Notes under the pieces: generated by a model | Databases searched by the model: none | The model's input: the letters and a program-made list of their open reading frames with translations, nothing else | Told to the model about the DNA's origin: nothing | Assembly: GCF_029490015.1 (NCBI RefSeq) | Contig: NZ_CP120468.1 | Coordinates: 1,116,001 to 1,180,000, forward strand | DNA: 64,000 nt | Source of the DNA: Halobaculum limi | GTDB lineage: Archaea > Halobacteriota > Halobacteria > Halobacteriales > Haloferacaceae | Direction of reading: 5' to 3' | Shown here: positions 35,633-60,890 of the stretch, piece after piece | How the letters are laid out: the number at the start of each line of letters is the position of its first letter | Position numbering within the stretch: position 1 is the stretch's first letter | Made by a program: the position numbers and the translations under genes

Positions 35633-37681
35633 ATGGCAGGAATCTTCGACTTCGCACCGGCCATCGTACTGCTCCCGTTCCTCTCGTTCCTGATCGCAGT
35701 CGGGGTCGGCCTCTCGGGCCGTGACCTGCTGCCGAAAGGCGGTGCCATCCCCGGCATCGCCGCGACCGCCGGTTCGCTGGTCCTCTCCATCGCGATGGCC
35801 GCGACGGTCGCCGGGGGCGAGACGTACGACGAAACACTCTACACGTGGGCCGTCGGGGCCGTCCCCGGCGCGGAAGCGCCGCTGGAACTGACGTTCGGCG
35901 TCCTCATCGACCCGCTGTCGTCGATGATGCTCGTCATCGTGACGCTCGTCGCCCTCCTGGTCCACGTCTTCTCGCTCGGCTACATGAACGACGACGGCGA
36001 GACGGGCCTCCCCCGGTACTACGCCGGCCTCGGCCTGTTCACCGCCTCGATGCTCGGGTTCGTCGTCGCCGACAACCTGCTGATGGCGTTCATGTTCTTC
36101 GAACTGGTGGGGCTGTGCTCGTACCTCCTCATCGGCTTCCACTTCCGCGAACCCGGCCCGCCGTCGGCGGCGAAGAAGGCGTTCCTGGTCACCCGCTTCG
36201 GTGACTACTTCTTCCTCGTCGGCGTCGTCGCCGTCTTCGCGACGTTCGGCACCGCCCAGTTCGGCGGGGCCGAGTCGTTCCCCGTCCTCGCCGAACAGGC
36301 GCTCGCGGGCGAACACACGGTCAACACGTTCCTCGGCCTCGGTGAGCAGGCGTGGTTCACCGTCGTCGGCCTCCTCGTCCTCGGCGGGGTCATCGGCAAG
36401 TCCGCGCAGTTCCCGCTGCACACGTGGCTCCCCGACGCGATGGAAGGCCCGACGCCGGTCTCCGCGCTCATCCACGCGGCCACGATGGTCGCTGCGGGTG
36501 TCTTCCTCGTCGCCCGGATGTACGGCTTCTACGCTATCTCGCCGACCGCACTCGGCATCATCGCGCTCGTGGGCGGCTTCACGGCGCTGTTCGCCGGGAC
36601 GATGGGCCTTGTGAAGCGCGAACTCAAGCAGGTGCTCGCGTACTCCACCATCTCGCAGTACGGCTATATGATGCTCGCGCTCGGCGCGGGCGGGTACGTG
36701 GCTGCGACCTTCCACCTGCTGACTCACGCGTTCTTCAAGGCGCTGCTGTTCCTCGGCGCTGGGTCGGTCATCCTCGCGATGCACCACAACGAAAATATGT
36801 GGGACATGGGCGGGCTGAAAGACAAGATGCCCGTCACCTACTACTCGTTCCTCGCCGGGTCGCTGGCGCTGGCGGGTATCTTCCCGTTCGCTGGCTTCTG
36901 GTCGAAAGACGAGATTCTCTTCGAGACGCTCATCCACGGCTTGGACGGGTCGCCGCTGCTGTTGGTCGGCTACGCGTTCGGCCTGCTTGCGGTGCCCGTG
37001 ACGGCCTTCTACACCTTCCGGATGGTGTTCCTCACCTTCCACGGTGAGCCACGCACCGAGCAGGCAGCCGACCCCGACGGGGTCCGGTGGAACGTGAAGG
37101 GGCCGCTGGCGGTGCTGGGCATCCTTGCGACGGTCGCGGGCGCGGTCAACCTCGCGCCGGTGAAGTATCTCACGGGCCTCGAGGTGGACTTCCTGCACTC
37201 GTGGCTCGACTTGGGCCCGACGCCGCTGACGGTCCACCACTACGCGGAGATCGACCCGTACTCCTCGGCGTACATCGGCGGCAGCTCAGTGACGACGGTG
37301 CTCGTGGGCGCGGCCGTCTCGCTCGGCCTCGCGCTGTTGGGACTGCTCGTCGCCCGTCGCCTGTACGCGGTGCCGGAACCGGTCGAGCACACGCAGAAGC
37401 TCGGTGGGTTCGCGGACCTGCTGTACGACAACTACTACCAGGACGAGTATCAGGTGTTCATCGCGAATCGGGTCGTGCTCCCGTTGGCCCGCGTCGCTGA
37501 CACCTTCGACCAGGGCGTCGTCGACGGCGCGGTCAACGCCATCTCCAGCGTGAGCCTGTTCTCCGGCTCGCGCATCCGGCGCATCCAGACCGGCGTGGTG
37601 AGCAACTACGCCGCGATGGTGACACTCGGACTGACCGTCCTGCTTGTGCTGTTCGGAGTTCTCGGGGGGTGGTTACTGTGA
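35633..37681 (+). CDS. nuoL: complex I antiporter-like subunit NuoL
   Basis: A 682-residue membrane subunit, one of the three antiporter-like proton channels. Landmarks are DPLSSMMLVIVTLVALLVHVFS, FFELVGLCSYLLIGFH, the channel Lys/His region KSAQFPLHTWLPDAMEGPTPVSALIHAATMV, and LVKRELKQVLAYSTISQYGYM. The C-terminal lateral helix region (about 540-682) is present as in true NuoL. It overlaps nuoM by four bases. Confidence 0.96.
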   Translation: MAGIFDFAPAIVLLPFLSFLIAVGVGLSGRDLLPKGGAIPGIAATAGSLVLSIAMAATVAGGETYDETLYTWAVGAVPGAEAPLELTFGVLIDPLSSMMLVIVTLVALLVHVFSLGYMNDDGETGLPRYYAGLGLFTASMLGFVVADNLLMAFMFFELVGLCSYLLIGFHFREPGPPSAAKKAFLVTRFGDYFFLVGVVAVFATFGTAQFGGAESFPVLAEQALAGEHTVNTFLGLGEQAWFTVVGLLVLGGVIGKSAQFPLHTWLPDAMEGPTPVSALIHAATMVAAGVFLVARMYGFYAISPTALGIIALVGGFTALFAGTMGLVKRELKQVLAYSTISQYGYMMLALGAGGYVAATFHLLTHAFFKALLFLGAGSVILAMHHNENMWDMGGLKDKMPVTYYSFLAGSLALAGIFPFAGFWSKDEILFETLIHGLDGSPLLLVGYAFGLLAVPVTAFYTFRMVFLTFHGEPRTEQAADPDGVRWNVKGPLAVLGILATVAGAVNLAPVKYLTGLEVDFLHSWLDLGPTPLTVHHYAEIDPYSSAYIGGSSVTTVLVGAAVSLGLALLGLLVARRLYAVPEPVEHTQKLGGFADLLYDNYYQDEYQVFIANRVVLPLARVADTFDQGVVDGAVNAISSVSLFSGSRIRRIQTGVVSNYAAMVTLGLTVLLVLFGVLGGWLL

Positions 37682-39210
37682 TAATCGAAGCACTCATCGG
37701 ATTCACGTTCCTCGCCGCGCTGGTCGTGATGCTGGCGCCCGACAAGTACGCCGGGAAGCTCGCCTTCGGGCTGAGCCTCCTCCCGGTCGTCGGGAGTCTG
37801 TACATGTGGGCCGGCTTCGACGCCGGCGGGAACGCACTTATGGCTGGGAGCATCGCCTATCAGACACAGATCGAGTGGCTCACCGCCTTCGGCTACGAAC
37901 TCCAGTGGTTCGTCGGCGTCGACGGTATCAGCCTGCCGCTGGTCGTTCTCTCGACGGTGCTGACCTCGCTGGCTATCTTGTCGGCGTGGACGCCCATCGA
38001 CGCGCGCCAGTCGCAGTTCTACGGCCTGATGCTGTTCATGGAGGCGAACCTCATCGGCGTGTTCACCGCGCTGGACTTCTTCCTGTGGTTCGTCTTCTGG
38101 GAGGCCGTGCTGGTCCCGATGTACTTCCTCATCGGCGTGTGGGGCGGCCCGCGCCGGAAGTACGCCGCGATCAAGTTCTTCGTGTACACGAACATCGCCA
38201 GCCTCGCGATGTTCATCGCGTTCATGGCGTTAGTGTTCAACCTCCCCGTCAGTTCGTTCGGACTGCCGGAGATCACCCAGTCGCTGCAGGCGGGTGAACT
38301 GAGCGGCTTCGTCGGCCTCGACCCGGCGACGCTGAAACTCGCGGCGTTCGTGGCGATGTTCGCGGGCTTCGCGGTGAAGGTGCCCGTCGTCCCGGTCCAC
38401 ACGTGGCTGCCGGACGCCCACGTCGAAGCACCGACGCCGGTGTCGGTGATGCTGGCGGGCGTCCTCCTGAAGATGGGGACGTACGCCCTACTGCGGTTCA
38501 ACTTCACGATGCTGCCGGACGTGGCGACTCGCCCGCTCGTGGCGGGTGCAATCGCCGCGGTGGCGGTCATCTCGGTTATCTACGGTGCGATGCTCGCGCT
38601 GGCCCAACAGGATCTCAAGCGCATCGTCGCGTACTCCTCCGTCTCGTCGATGGGGTACGTCATCCTCGGCCTCGTCGCGTACACCGCACTCGGCGTCGGC
38701 GGCGCGACGTTCCAGATGATCGCACACGGCCTCATCTCGGGGCTGATGTTCATGGCGGTCGGCGTCATCTACAACGTCACCCACACGCGGATGGTTGGCG
38801 ACATGTCCGGGATGGCCGACCGGATGCCCATCACGGTGGGCATCCTCATCGCCGGCGCGTTCGGCTACATGGGCCTCCCGCTCATGGCCGGGTTCGCCGC
38901 CGAGTACTTCATCTTCCAGGGCGCGTTCGCCTCGACGGTTATCCCGTCGGCACCGCTGTTCACGGCGGCGTCGATGTTCGGCATCGTCATCGTGGCGGGC
39001 TACCTCCTGTTCGCGATGCAGCGGACGCTGTTCGGAGAGTTCCGCCTGGAGACCGACTACGAGGTGTCGCGCGCGGCGTTCCACGACGTGGCACCGCTGG
39101 CGGTGCTGCTGCTGTGTACCATCGCGCTGGGCGTCGCACCCAGCATCTTCTTCGAGATGATCACTGACGCAATCGAGCCGGTCGTCGCGGTCGTCGGGGG
39201 TGGTGCCTGA
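37678..39210 (+). CDS. nuoM: complex I antiporter-like subunit NuoM
   Basis: A 510-residue membrane subunit. Landmarks are FVGVDGISLPLVVLSTVLTSLAIL, FFLWFVFWEAVLVPMYFLIG (with the key Glu), VHTWLPDAHVEAPTPVSVML and AQQDLKRIVAYSSVSSMGYV. GTG at 37678 is taken because it overlaps the nuoL stop (GTGA); the GTG nine bases earlier lies deeper in nuoL. Its stop overlaps the nuoN ATG. Confidence 0.96.
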   Translation: MIIEALIGFTFLAALVVMLAPDKYAGKLAFGLSLLPVVGSLYMWAGFDAGGNALMAGSIAYQTQIEWLTAFGYELQWFVGVDGISLPLVVLSTVLTSLAILSAWTPIDARQSQFYGLMLFMEANLIGVFTALDFFLWFVFWEAVLVPMYFLIGVWGGPRRKYAAIKFFVYTNIASLAMFIAFMALVFNLPVSSFGLPEITQSLQAGELSGFVGLDPATLKLAAFVAMFAGFAVKVPVVPVHTWLPDAHVEAPTPVSVMLAGVLLKMGTYALLRFNFTMLPDVATRPLVAGAIAAVAVISVIYGAMLALAQQDLKRIVAYSSVSSMGYVILGLVAYTALGVGGATFQMIAHGLISGLMFMAVGVIYNVTHTRMVGDMSGMADRMPITVGILIAGAFGYMGLPLMAGFAAEYFIFQGAFASTVIPSAPLFTAASMFGIVIVAGYLLFAMQRTLFGEFRLETDYEVSRAAFHDVAPLAVLLLCTIALGVAPSIFFEMITDAIEPVVAVVGGGA

Positions 39211-40718
39211 TGGAGCCAGTCCTTTTGCAAGGCAGTTCGCTCCCCGAGTGGACCGCACTCGCGCCGGCGCTGGCGCTCGCACTGACCGGGCTGCTGTTGA
39301 TCGTGATCGACAGCGTGAACCCCGAAGACTCCAACCCAGCGCTGCTCGCAGGCGTCGGCACGGTCGGTGCGCTGGCGTCGCTCGGCCTCGCCGGATGGTT
39401 CCTCGGGGCCGGCACCGGACAGCCAGGAACCGGTGGCACCATCTCGCTGTACGGCGACTCGCTCGTCGTCGACGGGATGACGCTGTTCTTCCAGGCGCTG
39501 TTCGCCTCTGTCACCGCGCTGGTGGTGGTGGCGAGTTTCGACTACCTCAGCGACAAGGCGTACCAGGCGGAGTTCTACTCGCTGGTGCTGTTCGCCGCGA
39601 CCGGGATGGCGCTGATGGCGGCCGCCAACTCGCTGGCGGTCGCGTTCGTCGCGCTGGAACTCGCCTCGCTGCCGTCGTACGCACTGGTCGCGTTCCTCAA
39701 GCGTGACACCGGCAGCGTCGAGGCGGGCCTGAAGTACTTCCTCATCGGCGCGCTGTCGTCGGCGGTGTTCGCCTTCGGTATCTCGCTGGTGTACGCCGCG
39801 ACGGGCAGCCTCCTGCTGCCGGACGTGTACGAGGCACTCTCGGGCGGGATGGAAGGTCTCTCGGGCGTCGCCGGCGTCGGCATCCTGATGATCGCCGGCG
39901 GCTTCGCGTTCAAGACGGCTTCCGTCCCGTTCCACTTCTGGGCGCCGGAGGCGTACGAGGGCGCGCCCGCACCCGTTTCCGGGTTCCTCTCGTCGGCCTC
40001 GAAGGCCGCCGGGTTCGCGGTGGCGTTCCGCGTGTTCGTCACCGGCTTCCCGGTCGACGTCGGCATCGACTGGGTGCTGTTGTTCCAGATTCTCGCGGTC
40101 GTCACGATGACGCTCGGGAACTTCGCCGCCGCGACCCAGGAGAACGTCAAGCGGATGCTGGCGTACTCCTCGGTCGGGCACGCGGGCTACGCACTCATCG
40201 GCCTCGCCGCCTTCACTGGCGGCGCGGGCGGCAACGTGCTTGGTGCGTCGATGGCGCACCTCCTCGTGTACGGCTTTATGAACACGGGTGCGTTCCTGTT
40301 CGTCGCACTGGCGGAACACTGGGGCATCGGCCGCACGTTCGACGACTACTCGGGGCTGGCGAGTAAGGCGCCGCTGGCGTGCGTCGCGATGACCGTGTTC
40401 ATGTTCTCGCTGGCGGGCCTGCCGCCGTTCGGCGGGTTCTTCTCGAAGTACTTCCTGTTCGCCGGCGCGGTCGAGGCCGGCTTCTGGTGGCTCGCCGCCG
40501 TGGGCGCGGTCAACAGCGCGCTGTCGCTGTTCTACTACAGCCGCGTCGTGAAGGCGCTGTGGCTCAACGACCCGGTCACCGAGTTCGAACTCGGCTCGAC
40601 GCCGACGGCGCTGTACGCTGCCGTCGTGTTCGCCGCGGTCGCGACCGTCCTCTTGTTGCCCGGCTTCCCGCCGGTCATCGAGACGGCACAGGCGGCCGCG
40701 ACGACCATCCTCCCGTAA
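39210..40718 (+). CDS. nuoN: complex I antiporter-like subunit NuoN
   Basis: A 502-residue membrane subunit, last in the cluster. It has the typical VAFVALELASLPSYALVAFLKRD and LKYFLIGALSSAVFAFGISLVYAATGS segments, the channel loop PFHFWAPEAYEGAPAPVSGFL and TQENVKRMLAYSSVGHAGYAL. It starts within the nuoM stop. The following 159 bases hold the promoter of the phosphoesterase gene and no further nuo gene, so E, F and G are missing from the locus. Confidence 0.96.
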   Translation: MEPVLLQGSSLPEWTALAPALALALTGLLLIVIDSVNPEDSNPALLAGVGTVGALASLGLAGWFLGAGTGQPGTGGTISLYGDSLVVDGMTLFFQALFASVTALVVVASFDYLSDKAYQAEFYSLVLFAATGMALMAAANSLAVAFVALELASLPSYALVAFLKRDTGSVEAGLKYFLIGALSSAVFAFGISLVYAATGSLLLPDVYEALSGGMEGLSGVAGVGILMIAGGFAFKTASVPFHFWAPEAYEGAPAPVSGFLSSASKAAGFAVAFRVFVTGFPVDVGIDWVLLFQILAVVTMTLGNFAAATQENVKRMLAYSSVGHAGYALIGLAAFTGGAGGNVLGASMAHLLVYGFMNTGAFLFVALAEHWGIGRTFDDYSGLASKAPLACVAMTVFMFSLAGLPPFGGFFSKYFLFAGAVEAGFWWLAAVGAVNSALSLFYYSRVVKALWLNDPVTEFELGSTPTALYAAVVFAAVATVLLLPGFPPVIETAQAAATTILP

Positions 40719-40877
40719 GGGAGTCGAAGCGAAGCCTCTGCCCGCTGCAGTTCGGTTTCTTCACGCGAGTACGTCGACACACGCTCCCAGCGACGCGGGT
40801 AGCGGCCCACGCGAATCATTCTCAGTGTGTCGGCGGACGATAGCGTTTTTCCCGGCCGGGACCGATTCACGGCTGTA

Positions 40878-42335
40878 ATGCGCCGGCTGGTGTTGGGGTG
40901 TGGCAGCCTCGGAACCCACATAATCGAGGAGTTGTCCGGTCGGCAGGGAGAACTCCACGTCATCACCGACGAAAGTGGTCGAGCGACTGCCCTCCGCGAG
41001 GAACACGTCTCGGCGGCCGAAGCCGACCCGTTAGACCCCACGAACTACCCCGACCACGCCGACATCGTCTTCGTCGCTGGCCCGTCCGCGACGGACAACC
41101 TCTCGGCGGCCGACCACGCGCACCGACACTTTCCGGACGCGATGCTCGTCGCGTACGCCGGCGAGGACGCCACCGAGGCCGACCTCCGAGCGATGCGAGA
41201 GCTCGCCGACCGCGTCATCGACCCGATCGGAATCCAATCCGACCGCATCCTCGACGTGTCGACGGGCGTTCGCGCCGACCGCCTCCGTCGGATGGCGCGG
41301 GCGTTGCGGTCGGTCGACGGCAAACTGGCCGTCGTCGCTCACGACAACCCCGACCCCGACGCCATCGCCGCGGCGGTCGCACTCGTTCGCGTCGCACAGT
41401 TCGCTGGCACAGACGCGCAGGCGTGCTACTACGGCGACATCTCTCACCAGGAGAACCGTGCGTTGGTGAACCTCCTCGACATCGGGATGCGCCGACTCGA
41501 CCCCGACGACGACCCACGCGAAGAGTTCGACGCGTTCGCGCTCGTCGACCACTCGCGACCGGGCGTCAACGACAGTCTCCCCGACGACATCGAACCGATC
41601 ATCGTCGTCGACCACCACCCACCGCGAGAGCCGGTCGACGCGGGCTTCATCGACCTCCGTGACGGCGTGGGGTCGACGTCCACGCTGCTCGTCGAGTACC
41701 TCGATCGCTTCGGGCTGACGCCCGACTCACGCCTCGCGACGGCGCTGTTGTACGGCATCCGAATCGACACGAAAGAGTTCACCCGTGAGGTGGCAGAAGC
41801 CGACTTCGACGCCGCCGCGTACCTGATGCCGATGGTCGACACCGACGTGCTCGCACGGGTCGAGTCTCCCAGCGTCGACCCCGCGGTGTTCGACGTGTTG
41901 GCGCGGGCTATCGAGAACCGCGACCAGCGAGGGACGGCACTGGCCTCCGGCGTCGGTGAGATACGCAACCGCGACGCCCTCGCGCAGGCGGCCGAACACC
42001 TCCTAAATATGGAGGGCGTGAACACGACCGTCGTGTACGGCTATCAGGACGGCGTGATATACGTCTCCGGTCGGACGCGCGGGGCCGACCTCGATTTGGG
42101 TGAGACGCTCCGCGACGCCCTCTCTCAGATCGGTTCTGCGGGCGGGCACGCGGATATGGCCGGTGCGCAGATTCCGCTCGGTATCCTCGCGGACGTGGAG
42201 GACGGGTCGAAAGAGACGCTCGCTGATATCGTCGACGACATCATCGCCGGACGACTCTTCGAGACGCTCGCAGACGCGCCATCTGCGCCCGTGCGAACCG
42301 CCGAGCGTGAACTGCGGTTCCCCGACGAAGATTGA
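40878..42335 (+). CDS. Rossmann (TrkA-N-like) plus DHH/DHHA1 phosphoesterase
   Basis: 485 residues in three parts. Residues about 1-130 form a Rossmann-like nucleotide-binding domain (RRLVLGCGSLGTHIIEEL; GxGxxG), as in TrkA-N/RCK regulators. Residues about 140-325 are a DHH phosphoesterase with VAHDNPDPDAIAAAVAL, a second metal Asp in FALVDHSRPG and VVDHHPP. The end (about 330-485) is DHHA1-like, with the nucleic acid/nucleotide-binding GSAGGHADMAGAQIP. DHH-DHHA1 enzymes of this kind split nanoRNA, pAp or cyclic dinucleotides. The RCK-like front makes a cyclic-di-AMP phosphodiesterase an attractive but unproven idea. Start ATG 40878, with a GCGTTTTT box about 26 bases upstream. Confidence 0.85.
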   Translation: MRRLVLGCGSLGTHIIEELSGRQGELHVITDESGRATALREEHVSAAEADPLDPTNYPDHADIVFVAGPSATDNLSAADHAHRHFPDAMLVAYAGEDATEADLRAMRELADRVIDPIGIQSDRILDVSTGVRADRLRRMARALRSVDGKLAVVAHDNPDPDAIAAAVALVRVAQFAGTDAQACYYGDISHQENRALVNLLDIGMRRLDPDDDPREEFDAFALVDHSRPGVNDSLPDDIEPIIVVDHHPPREPVDAGFIDLRDGVGSTSTLLVEYLDRFGLTPDSRLATALLYGIRIDTKEFTREVAEADFDAAAYLMPMVDTDVLARVESPSVDPAVFDVLARAIENRDQRGTALASGVGEIRNRDALAQAAEHLLNMEGVNTTVVYGYQDGVIYVSGRTRGADLDLGETLRDALSQIGSAGGHADMAGAQIPLGILADVEDGSKETLADIVDDIIAGRLFETLADAPSAPVRTAERELRFPDED

Positions 42336-42381
42336 TTCTGGTGAGGAACCCTTACCACGTCGCCCGCCGAAGCGCCGACGA

Positions 42382-43221
42382 ATGAGCGACACCCGGCACA
42401 CGGCGTCGAAGCCGAAGGTGAAGGCGTACATGACCCGTGACGTGGCGACGGTGTCGCCCGACGACACGGTTCGCGAGGCGGCCGAGCGAATCATCGACAG
42501 CAACCACAACGGCTTCCCCGTCACCGACGGGCGGACGGTCGTCGGCTTCGTCTCCGCGCGTGACCTCCTGTTGACCGACACCGACGCGCCGGTGTTCACC
42601 GTGATGAGCGACGACATCATCGTCGCGCACCCGGAGATGAACGTCAACGACGCCGCCCGGGTCATCCTGCGGTCGGGCATCCAGAAACTCCCCGTCGTCG
42701 ACGATGCGGGCAACCTCGTCGGCATCATCTCTAACACAGACGTGATCCGCTCACAGATCGAACGAGCGACGCCTGAGAAGGTTGGGAAACTGATGCGGAC
42801 GCTCGAAGAGATTCACGGCGTCGGCACGACCGAGGAGCGCCGAACAGTGTCGCTCAGTGCGCTGTTACCGACGCAGGCGCGCGTGTACGCCGACGAGTTG
42901 GAGGGTCGCCGCTACGAACTCGAACGCGGACTGGCGGAACCCCTCGTCGTCATCGACAACCCCAACGAGAGCGGCGAACTCGAAGACGACGGCACGCTCG
43001 TCCTCGCCGACGGTCACCACCGCGTGATGGCGGCCCACCGCCTCGGCATCGAGGAGATGGACGCGTACGTCATCGTCATCGCCGACCACGTCGACTTGGG
43101 GATGGCTAAGACCGCCCGCAAGGAGGGACTCGGTTCGATCACCGACATCGAGGTGGTCGACTACGCGCGCCACCCACTTGTCGAGACGACCAAACGCTTC
43201 CAGTCCGAGGACGGCGACTGA
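42382..43221 (+). CDS. CBS-pair protein with ParB-like domain
   Basis: 279 residues. Two CBS motifs (about 16-125) are seen as YMTRDVATVSPDDTVREAAERI...GFVSARDLL and VMSDDIIVAHPEMNVNDAARVIL...GIISNTDVI. A C-terminal ParB/Srx-like domain follows, with VSLSALLPTQARVY and the nucleotide motif LADGHHRVMAAHRLG. CBS pairs usually bind adenine nucleotides and tune a partner domain. ParB-type domains bind CTP or act as nucleases. No ParA or origin is adjacent, so a chromosome-partition role is unproven. It lies 46 bases after the DHH gene in the same direction. Confidence 0.87.
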   Translation: MSDTRHTASKPKVKAYMTRDVATVSPDDTVREAAERIIDSNHNGFPVTDGRTVVGFVSARDLLLTDTDAPVFTVMSDDIIVAHPEMNVNDAARVILRSGIQKLPVVDDAGNLVGIISNTDVIRSQIERATPEKVGKLMRTLEEIHGVGTTEERRTVSLSALLPTQARVYADELEGRRYELERGLAEPLVVIDNPNESGELEDDGTLVLADGHHRVMAAHRLGIEEMDAYVIVIADHVDLGMAKTARKEGLGSITDIEVVDYARHPLVETTKRFQSEDGD

Positions 43222-43253: not shown

Positions 43254-43490
43254 TTACGCCGCGTCGTCGCGGTCGAACTCGACTTTCCACTCCGCGAGCA
43301 ACGCCTCGGCGTCCGTTCGGTCCTCGACACGCTGACGGCGGTACGCTCGCCCGTCTGGTGCCTGTTCGAGTCTGTCCACACGGACGACGACGCTCCCGTC
43401 TGCGTGTTCGCGGAGACGGATCGTCGCGAGTCCGTCCGCACGCTCCCACTCGTCGTACCGGTCGGTCGTCTCGACGGGGCTCCAACCCAT
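43254..43490 (-). CDS. small conserved haloarchaeal protein
   Basis: A 78-residue acidic protein starting MGWSPVETTDRYDEWERADG and running through IRLREHADGSVVVRVDRLEQAP to a Glu/Asp-rich end. The pattern suggests one small alpha-beta domain; role unknown. ATG at 43490 is favoured by protein pattern and a TTAAT box 26-30 bases upstream. However, an in-frame ATG at 43559 overlaps the stop of the upstream zinc-ribbon gene as ATGA and would add 23 Gly/Thr/Arg-rich residues, so the longer form may be made by coupling. Confidence 0.75.
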   Translation of the reverse strand: MGWSPVETTDRYDEWERADGLATIRLREHADGSVVVRVDRLEQAPDGRAYRRQRVEDRTDAEALLAEWKVEFDRDDAA

Positions 43491-43555
43491 ACCGACCGTT
43501 CGCGTGCTCCGGGTGTTAATTCGGGGGGTTTGCCCGCCCTCGTTGCTCCCCTCGG

Positions 43556-59267: not shown

Positions 59268-60890
59268 TCACGCGAACAGTTCGTTGAAGCGGTTCACCGC
59301 GTCGTCGGTGCCGGCGACGACAAGCGTGTCGCCCTCGACGACTTTCGTGTCGGGGCCGATGTCCGTCAGCAGGTCGCCGTCGCGTTCGATAGCGACGACG
59401 GTGCACCCGGTTCGCGCGCGAACGTCGGCGTCTGCGAGGCCACGCCCCTCCAGTGCGGGGGCGGCGGTGCGGACGAGGTCGACCTGCGTCTCCGGGCGAA
59501 GCACTTCCTCGTCGAGGAGGTGGGAGGCGAGGAGGCGACCGGAGACGGTCGACAGCGCGAGGACGTACTCTGCGCCCGCACGATAGAGTTTCGGCACGGA
59601 GTCGGCGTCGTTCGCGCGGACGATGACCTCCGCACGCGGAGCGACCTGCTTCACCGCCAGCGTCGCGAAGATGGTCGTCGTGTCCGAGTCGAGTGCGAGG
59701 ACGACCGCGCGGGCGTCCTCGACGCCCGCCTCCTTCAACGTCTCGCGGTCGGTCGCGTCGCCGACCACGTCGACGCCCGGCTTGTCGACCTCGTCGACGA
59801 CGACCACGTCGTCGGTCGGCCGGAGTTCGTCGGCGGCGCTGTGGCCGACCATCCCATAGCCGGCGACGAGGACGCGCCCGCGGCGGCGCTGTCGGGTCTC
59901 CGAGAGGGTCAGTTGCTTGAGCGCCTCCAGTTCGGACTCGTTGCCGACGACAAGCAAGACGGTGTGTTCGTCGATGACGCGTTCCGGGCGCGGCGGCGAC
60001 TCGAACTCGCCGTCGTCCCACGCGCCGAGGACGTTCGCGCCGGTTCGCTCGCCGATGCCCGACTCGGCGACTGTCCCGCCGACCAGTGGACTCCCGTGGT
60101 GGACGAGCAGTTCTGCGATCTGGAAGTCCTCGCCAATCTCGACGCCGTCGCCGAGTTCGTCCGCGACGCTGGCGGTGGCTTTCGCGCCGAGGCTCTCCCC
60201 GAGCAGACGGCGCGGCGAGATGACGCGGTCTGCCCCGGCGTACCGGTGGTAGTCGGCCACGTCCTCGTCTTCGACGAGGCTGACCACTCGGAGGTCCTCC
60301 GAACACTCACGCGCCGAGAGGACGACGCTTGCGTTCGTCTCGTCGTCTGCGTCGGCGACGAGCGCCCGTGCGTTCGCGGTGTTCGCGCGTTCGAGCGTCT
60401 CGACCTCTTCGGGGTCACCGTGGACCACGTCGTAGTCGTCCGAGAGGTCGATCGCCTGTTCCCGGTCGTCGACGACGACCACGTACGACTGGTCGCGTGC
60501 GTCGAGTTCCCGCGCGAGCGTCGCGCCGCGAGGGGTGAACGAACAGATGACGACGTGGTCGCGTTTCGTCGTCGCCCGCGGCGGCGACGTGGATATCGCC
60601 TCGTTCACCAGCGGGACGATGATCGCCGGCAACGCGAGGAAGATGATACCGACGCCAGCCAACTGCATCCCCACCATCAGCAGTAACATTCCGTCTGCGT
60701 CCCACTGGTTCACGTCGATGCCGAACCCGGTCGTCGTGAACGTCTCCACGACCACGTACAGCGAGTGCGCGTAGCCCACCTGCTCGCCCTCGAAGGCGGC
60801 GAACCCCCACTGGTAGACGAACGCGAGTAGGAGCATCACGCCGAACACGCCGAGGAGGTACTCGGCGGCGCGGCGGGTCGTGGATACCAT
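59268..60890 (-). CDS. two-helix K+ channel with two RCK (TrkA) modules
   Basis: 540 residues. A first helix (about 11-33), the pore loop with the filter TTTGFG (52-57) and a second helix (about 66-96) form a minimal channel. Two tandem RCK modules follow: Rossmann domains at about 108-230 (HVVICSFTPRGATLAREL) and about 328-450 (RVLVAGYGMVGHSAADEL), each with a TrkA-C domain (ending LLVVGNESELEAL and LVVAGTDDAVNRF). The first Rossmann lacks the standard glycine signature while the second is canonical. Nucleotides or cyclic di-AMP may gate it. It converges with the GH13-type gene. Confidence 0.93.
   Translation of the reverse strand: MVSTTRRAAEYLLGVFGVMLLLAFVYQWGFAAFEGEQVGYAHSLYVVVETFTTTGFGIDVNQWDADGMLLLMVGMQLAGVGIIFLALPAIIVPLVNEAISTSPPRATTKRDHVVICSFTPRGATLARELDARDQSYVVVVDDREQAIDLSDDYDVVHGDPEEVETLERANTANARALVADADDETNASVVLSARECSEDLRVVSLVEDEDVADYHRYAGADRVISPRRLLGESLGAKATASVADELGDGVEIGEDFQIAELLVHHGSPLVGGTVAESGIGERTGANVLGAWDDGEFESPPRPERVIDEHTVLLVVGNESELEALKQLTLSETRQRRRGRVLVAGYGMVGHSAADELRPTDDVVVVDEVDKPGVDVVGDATDRETLKEAGVEDARAVVLALDSDTTTIFATLAVKQVAPRAEVIVRANDADSVPKLYRAGAEYVLALSTVSGRLLASHLLDEEVLRPETQVDLVRTAAPALEGRGLADADVRARTGCTVVAIERDGDLLTDIGPDTKVVEGDTLVVAGTDDAVNRFNELFA

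Follow-up and report, generated by a model that had tools for sequence, protein, structure and literature searches.

Genes A and B of Halobaculum limi: a predicted phosphodiesterase of the cyclic di-AMP pathway and its CBS-ParB-fold neighbour

The window analysed here is a stretch of 64,000 nucleotides (nt) of the Halobaculum limi genome (NZ_CP120468.1, positions 1,116,001 to 1,180,000). It contains two neighbouring genes on the plus strand: gene A, which encodes an RCK-like Rossmann domain fused to a DHH-DHHA1 phosphoesterase, and gene B, which encodes two CBS motifs joined to a ParB-like domain. The sequence-only reading of this stretch had described this architecture (RCK/TrkA-N-like plus DHH-DHHA1, followed by two CBS plus ParB-like), and both open reading frames and their domains were confirmed by Pfam and by a family profile. 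The interpretation we consider probable is that gene A, referred to as copy A1, encodes a phosphodiesterase for cyclic di-AMP (c-di-AMP) or pApA with a regulatory Rossmann lobe, and that B is a CBS-sensed ParB-fold protein which is no dedicated c-di-AMP partner. The computed support comes from the domains, the fold, the intact catalytic residues, the joint loss of the family and of diadenylate cyclase, and the presence of two complementary copies in haloarchaea.

In the proposed mechanism the RCK-DHH-DHHA1 family of archaea would degrade c-di-AMP and/or its product pApA by two-metal DHH/DHHA1 chemistry, A1 being the haloarchaeal copy whose catalytic site is intact. Regulation of the phosphodiesterase would come from the N-terminal Rossmann lobe, through binding of an adenine nucleotide or NAD(H). 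B would be a CBS-sensed, nucleotide-binding ParB-fold protein with a mode of action that is neither that of a DNA clamp nor SerK-type catalysis. Both the substrate and the regulation of A are what we infer.

For the archaeal enzyme degrading c-di-AMP there are candidates only, according to a Haloferax gene survey, in which HVO_0990, HVO_0756 and HVO_1690 of Haloferax volcanii are the predicted c-di-AMP phosphodiesterases (PMC8305020). The phosphodiesterase prediction for the HVO_0990 type is already known, as are CBS-ParB fusions in haloarchaea. New in this work are the two diverged haloarchaeal copies of the fusion with complementary motif conservation; neither the co-loss test nor the active-site changes in the HVO_1690-type copy were found in the literature examined.

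Domains, fold and active site of gene A

The features of gene A, with residues given as amino acids (aa), are the following.
40878..42335, plus strand: gene A (copy A1), predicted phosphodiesterase of 485 aa with RCK-like Rossmann, DHH and DHHA1 domains, ATG start
40887..41225, plus strand: TrkA_N / RCK N-lobe Rossmann domain of A, aa 4-116, with a GCGSLG motif (Pfam TrkA_N, E=2.9e-8)
41325..41759, plus strand: DHH domain of A, aa 150-294 (Pfam), its motifs invariant in haloarchaeal orthologs
41940..42218, plus strand: DHHA1 domain of A, aa 355-447, with an AGGH motif (Pfam)

An in-frame GTG is present upstream of the ATG, at 40827. All three Pfam matches are above their cut-offs: TrkA_N with 34.5 bits (cut-off 23.8), DHH with 41.8 (28.1) and DHHA1 with 53.1 (25.9). 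TrkA_C was not found in the Pfam scan, so the protein carries the RCK N-lobe and not a full RCK domain; the TrkA_C C-lobe is the usual c-di-AMP site of RCK domains such as those of TrkA, KtrA and Kch.

Among solved structures the sequences closest to A are a c-di-AMP phosphodiesterase and the catalytic domain of GdpP (E about 1e-16). The AlphaFold2 model of A has a mean predicted local distance difference test (pLDDT) score of 89, and in a structure search it matches the phosphodiesterase of Thermotoga maritima with Z 27.0 (3.0 Å, 305 residues) and GdpP with Z 26.4, the phosphodiesterase and GdpP matches spanning 305-312 residues. RecJ structures follow at Z 17-19, and with the NCBIfam RecJ model, whose cut-off is 396.9, A reaches 7.9 bits. 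The N-lobe of the model matches the RCK domain of MthK (Z 16.8, 2.2 Å, 124 residues).

The active site is conserved. Motif I of the DHH part reads HDNPDPD, motif II VDHS and motif III VDHH, while motif IV (IDT) is located beyond the domain at aa 297. The metal-ligand and DHH residues H155, D159, D161, D224, D245, H246, H247 and D297 are kept in 79-80 of 80 A1 sequences, one of which is incomplete, and G422, G423 and H424 of the DHHA1 GGH motif are present in all 80. With DHH motifs I-IV carrying all metal ligands, the GGH motif and a phosphodiesterase-like fold, A has both the motifs and the fold of the GdpP/DhhP class. GdpP (YybT) and the T. maritima enzyme TM1595 share with A the DHH-DHHA1 core, the two-metal ligands and the fold (Z 26-27, 20-24% identity). 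They differ in that A is without the membrane, PAS or GGDEF parts and has the N-terminal RCK-like Rossmann lobe instead. Motifs and model together support the prediction that A is a DHH-DHHA1 phosphodiesterase of the c-di-AMP pathway.

Two haloarchaeal copies of the fusion

Besides A1, the H. limi genome encodes one more RCK-DHH fusion, A2 (L228), as well as two RCK-free DHH-DHHA1 proteins (L229 and L230).
L228:4682-6178 (C1 near 1,797,700-1,799,200), plus strand: A2, second RCK-DHH-DHHA1 fusion, GxGxxG intact, DHH and motif IV altered

The only cyclase gene of the genome (C1:1781398-1781757) is about 16 kb away from A2. Every haloarchaeon listed in the fusion search has at least two fusion-type matches. 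In a quick tree with long branches and an uncertain root, A1 forms one haloarchaeal clade (support 99) and A2 another (100), and the methanogen genes are sister to A2 (94 in the Shimodaira-Hasegawa-like approximate likelihood ratio test, SH-aLRT).

The motifs conserved in the two copies are complementary. In A1 the catalytic motif residues are intact and GxGxxG is complete in only 48 of 80 sequences. In A2 GxGxxG is complete in all 32 sequences, the second histidine of DHH is lost in 30 of them and the motif-IV aspartate is replaced by glutamate in all. The single-copy proteins of methanogens have GxGxxG in 20 of 23 cases and DHH in all 23, with glutamate at motif IV in six. The simplest reading of these sequences is that the functions of an ancestral regulated enzyme may have been shared out in haloarchaea between a catalytic copy, A1, and a copy keeping the nucleotide-binding lobe, A2; it is A1 rather than A2 which would carry catalysis.

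A stronger version of this reading, which we regard as possible although less probable than its opposite, is that A1 and A2 form one hetero-oligomer, A2 being the nucleotide sensor and A1 the catalyst of an ancestral one-chain enzyme split in haloarchaea. The retention of the Rossmann motif in A2 and of the catalytic motifs in A1 fits such a complex, as does the presence of at least two fusion-type matches in the listed haloarchaea. Arguing the other way, the Rossmann lobe of A1 is still folded in the model, A2 retains several metal ligands, glutamate could stand for aspartate, A2 may act on another substrate, and glutamate at motif IV also occurs in some methanogen proteins. More tentative still is the proposal that such a split of a one-chain RCK-regulated phosphodiesterase, into catalytic A1 and the sensor A2 without active site, serves to make c-di-AMP turnover respond to the redox or adenylate state. 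Haloarchaea live at molar K+, and if the sensor-enzyme pair were real, this coupling would operate in cells at such K+ concentrations.

The copies can be related to the published candidates by gene position. A1 follows nuo in Haloferax loci and HVO_0979 is nuoB, so the window gene fits HVO_0990, of which it is probably the ortholog; the link to the locus tag is derived from this position. In Haloferax genomes A2 and the cyclase gene are separated by about 26-27 kb, a distance matching that between the tags HVO_1690 and HVO_1660 (dacZ), which suggests that A2 corresponds to HVO_1690. The active-site changes of one paralog rank the three published candidates: the HVO_0990 type is the first choice for catalysis, and the HVO_1690 type is a possible sensor.

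Co-occurrence of the fusion with diadenylate cyclase

Diadenylate cyclase (PF02457) is present in all of the 116 haloarchaea sampled, which were also used for the presence of A-type genes and of B. Weaker, partial second matches to the DAC domain are seen in many haloarchaea (e.g. G014:C3:2244207-2244443), mostly in proteins of about 150-250 aa, and these could possibly be divergent cyclase-like paralogs.

Variation was found among Methanobacteriota, of which the same 391 genomes, each with a completeness of at least 90%, were searched for the cyclase and for the methanogen RCK-DHH protein. Both were present in 353 genomes and neither in 28, whereas six had the fusion only and four the cyclase only (phi 0.83). 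Some absences were derived by subtraction; the absence of the fusion and the family of those genomes were then confirmed directly. The 28 joint absences consist of 23 genomes of family f25, belonging to eight genera, and five genomes of genus g58. A closer look at the family of g58 showed that two genomes of this genus have both cyclase and fusion and that the other eight have neither. In f25 the residual matches are Rossmann-only proteins and stand-alone DHH-DHHA1 proteins with 25-37% identity, the latter mostly of about 320-350 aa. Since these stand-alone proteins survive, it is the fusion that was lost in f25 and not all DHH-DHHA1 proteins.

The pattern supports a c-di-AMP role of the RCK-DHH family. 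It gives independent support for this family among the archaeal candidates for c-di-AMP degradation, and f25 and g58 represent natural losses of the cyclase together with the fusion. The claim of the sequence-only reading that A might be a phosphodiesterase of the c-di-AMP pathway is in this way strengthened as a prediction by fold, active site and co-loss. Taken together with the complementary copies, the co-loss makes the existing phosphodiesterase prediction directly testable.

A number of points weigh against this assignment. Ten genomes are discordant, with the fusion but no cyclase in G149, G137, G196, G267, G274 and G328 and the cyclase but no fusion in G121, G161, G337 and G435. Two of these are one-contig genomes, G137, which keeps the fusion while the cyclase is not detectable, and G121, which shows the opposite discordance. 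In the tree of protein B the sampled g58 genomes with the losses form one clade (support 99/96), and as f25 is one family, only about two independent loss events are represented; because the genomes are related, the raw Fisher value of 1e-32 overstates the evidence. The co-loss is measured at the level of the RCK-DHH family, and A1 alone cannot be separated, all sampled haloarchaea having the cyclase. The sister of the methanogen genes being A2 and not A1, the co-loss is extended to A1 by paralogy. As to regulation, the eroded Rossmann motif of A1 weakens the part of the interpretation in which the lobe binds a nucleotide, even if an aspartate one residue further on (T30-D31) may serve as the acidic residue of strand beta-2. 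Finally, DHH-DHHA1 enzymes are promiscuous, acting on c-di-AMP, pApA, nanoRNA and pAp, and the fold cannot tell these activities apart.

This last point bears on the alternative that A is mainly a nanoRNase or pAp phosphatase of the NrnA-like housekeeping type, unrelated to signalling. Fold and catalytic motifs are the same, and the nanoRNase of B. fragilis (Z 25.7, near GdpP) and NrnA of Bacillus (Z 23.0) are among the top structural matches. With a nanoRNase nearly as close as GdpP, the fold alone gives no substrate for A. The presence of the family in G137 agrees with a housekeeping role, and so does the behaviour of HVO_0990, a protein which increases under hypochlorite and is grouped under DNA recombination/repair (PMC10294847). 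HVO_1690 protein increases under hypochlorite as well (PMC10294847). Against this stands the disappearance of the fusion with the cyclase in f25 and in the g58 clade, with stand-alone DHH-DHHA1 proteins remaining in f25; two independent and specific joint losses argue against a general housekeeping role of the fusion. We therefore rate the nanoRNase alternative as unlikely and keep the c-di-AMP/pApA phosphodiesterase as the preferred assignment for A1.

Gene B and the conservation of the A-B pair

The features of gene B and of its surroundings are the following.
42382..43221, plus strand: gene B, CBS-CBS-ParB-fold protein of 279 aa, ATG start (open reading frame and Pfam)
42418..42570, plus strand: CBS domain 1 of B, aa 13-63 (Pfam), D61 invariant
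42583..42753, plus strand: CBS domain 2 of B, about aa 68-124 (Pfam), D120 invariant
42844..43098, plus strand: ParB-like domain of B, about aa 155-239 (Pfam family hits and profile)
42874..42876, plus strand: invariant Q165 of B, aligned to Glu30 of SerK (alignment)
43009..43023, plus strand: DGHHR motif of B, aa 210-214, common to SerK, with the GxxR phosphate-binding motif inside (alignment; GxxR as defined in PMC12704722)
42336..42381, plus strand: intergenic gap of 46 nt between A and B (sequence)
35633..40718, plus strand: nuoL, nuoM and nuoN, end of a complex-I-like operon, conserved upstream neighbour of A-B

The CBS part of B is clear. Pfam finds CBS twice (100.5 bits), and the ribose-binding aspartates of the two motifs, D61 and D120, are invariant in 59 sequences, from which nucleotide sensing is predicted. 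The ParB-like domain is recognised at the family level. For the single sequence the ParBc_2 match is below threshold (17.2 bits, cut-off 23.6), and a phmmer search of the ParB domain alone against the PDB gave no match. Within the domain family, ParBc_2 is matched by 25 of 25 members and ParB_N by 16 of 25 (E<=0.1), and the family profile matches solved structures of ParB/Spo0J (E=2.2e-5 and 5.4e-3) and SerK (0.016), the SerK/SbnI range being 0.016-0.37. This profile match and the GxxR inside DGHHR are the marks of the ParB-CTPase fold. The full model of B (mean pLDDT 78.5) was also used in a fold search, in which CBS structures filled the hit list, so that the search speaks for the CBS part of B only. 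DGHHR is invariant in 25 diverse B sequences, and the blocks PTQ...DELEGR and GLAEP are kept as well.

The known protein with the nearest architecture is the archaeal CBS-ParB-CTPase fusion, whose architecture is exactly that of B, with the GxxR P-motif kept. According to a survey of these proteins, such fusions are known in haloarchaea, and CBS is the most frequent fusion of archaeal ParB-CTPases and occurs mainly in Methanobacteriota and haloarchaea; neither a neighbour like A nor the distribution of the cyclase is mentioned in the text examined (PMC12704722).

Neither a helix-turn-helix (HTH) nor a C-terminal ParB dimerisation domain was detected in the 279 aa of B, in which only CBS and the ParB-like domain were found. 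A function as ParB DNA-segregation clamp was for this reason rejected, and the DNA-binding output proposed for B by the sequence-only reading is not supported either.

The free serine kinase SerK (TK0378) shares with B the ParB fold and DGHHR (SerK residues 69-73), and the profile weakly finds both SerK and SbnI, from which one could propose for B a SerK/SbnI-type phosphorylation of free serine with ADP or ATP, under CBS control. B differs from SerK by the added CBS pair and by an invariant glutamine, in all homologs examined, at the position of Glu30, which we take to be the catalytic residue of SerK. The SerK chain 5x0j, with glutamine at position 30, scores above the glutamate form 5x0b in the comparison with the B family profile. 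Given the invariant glutamine and the better match of the glutamine-bearing chain, catalysis of the SerK type is unlikely; identity with SerK was rejected after alignment, the catalytic glutamate missing though the DGHHR-type motif is present, and a CBS-regulated serine kinase of this type seems to us very improbable. Judged from its motifs, B is most likely a nucleotide-binding ParB-fold switch or enzyme, predicted to be gated by the adenylate-sensing CBS pair.

B is present in 116 of 116 haloarchaea, nearly always in one copy and mostly with 65-88% identity (lowest 61%), and an A-type match is likewise found in all 116. In 72 of 80 named haloarchaeal loci A immediately precedes B and is read in the same direction; the gap between them has a median of 70 nt and does not exceed 100 nt in 49 loci. 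The order nuoL-nuoM-nuoN-A-B is found in most loci. Pairing in 72 of the 80 loci is not chance, and co-transcription of A and B is plausible from their arrangement. The conservation of the pair does not extend to Halorubrum, in which both genes are retained but are separated from nuo and from one another, and in one further haloarchaeal locus A is 4-5 kb away from B and on the other strand. Methanogens possess both B (about 45-57% identity) and an A-type gene (34-42%), non-adjacent in the genomes compared. Adjacency is thus a feature of haloarchaea and not essential. The methanogen neighbours of A and of B, which by Pfam include an NTP transferase and a presenilin-type protease, gave no functional hint, as no gene is common to most loci.

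The distribution of B separates it from c-di-AMP. B persists in the g58 genomes which lost both cyclase and A, and it was not found at the threshold used in the f11 genomes (G117, G126, G135, G144, G152, G164 and G169), in which cyclase and A are present. B was consequently rejected as a c-di-AMP effector, and the suggestion that it forms one half of a c-di-AMP signalling pair with A could not be upheld. B is a member of the haloarchaeal nuoL-M-N-A-B block and probably no dedicated c-di-AMP partner.

A related alternative is that A and B form one regulatory unit in which B, as a trans-acting CBS module, would tune A to the AMP/ATP state. The conserved same-strand adjacency with its short gap would agree with it, and several NCBIfam models for DHH enzymes with CBS domains (PRK14869 series, A-tRNAntase) weakly match both proteins. 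The analogy is with the CBS-domain family II pyrophosphatases, in which DHH chemistry and CBS sensing are found together as at A-B and the CBS domains act in cis on the DHH enzyme. These enzymes are however one chain, whereas A and B are two adjacent genes. The separation of the genes in Halorubrum and in methanogens, and the occurrence of B without A in g58 and of A without B in f11, speak against a common unit, and the adjacency may merely mirror the conserved nuo-A-B block. We hold this alternative to be improbable.

A second CBS-ParB copy, 48-50% identical, is seen in Haloferax-type genomes (G040:C3:94159-94941, G111:C22:7176-7943 and G078:C1:1790917-1791693); in two of these three genomes it shares its contig with A2 and the cyclase, within about 37 kb.

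Elsewhere in the window, the minus strand encodes a potassium-channel-like protein at 59268-60890, in which TrkA_N and TrkA_C each occur twice. The RCK-gated K+ channel noted at this position by the earlier reading is a real gene; for its proposed role as effector, no link to A-B was found over the 16 kb which separate them. Directly downstream of B, and convergent to it, is a DUF7543 gene (43254-43541, minus strand), which often adjoins B in Haloferacaceae.

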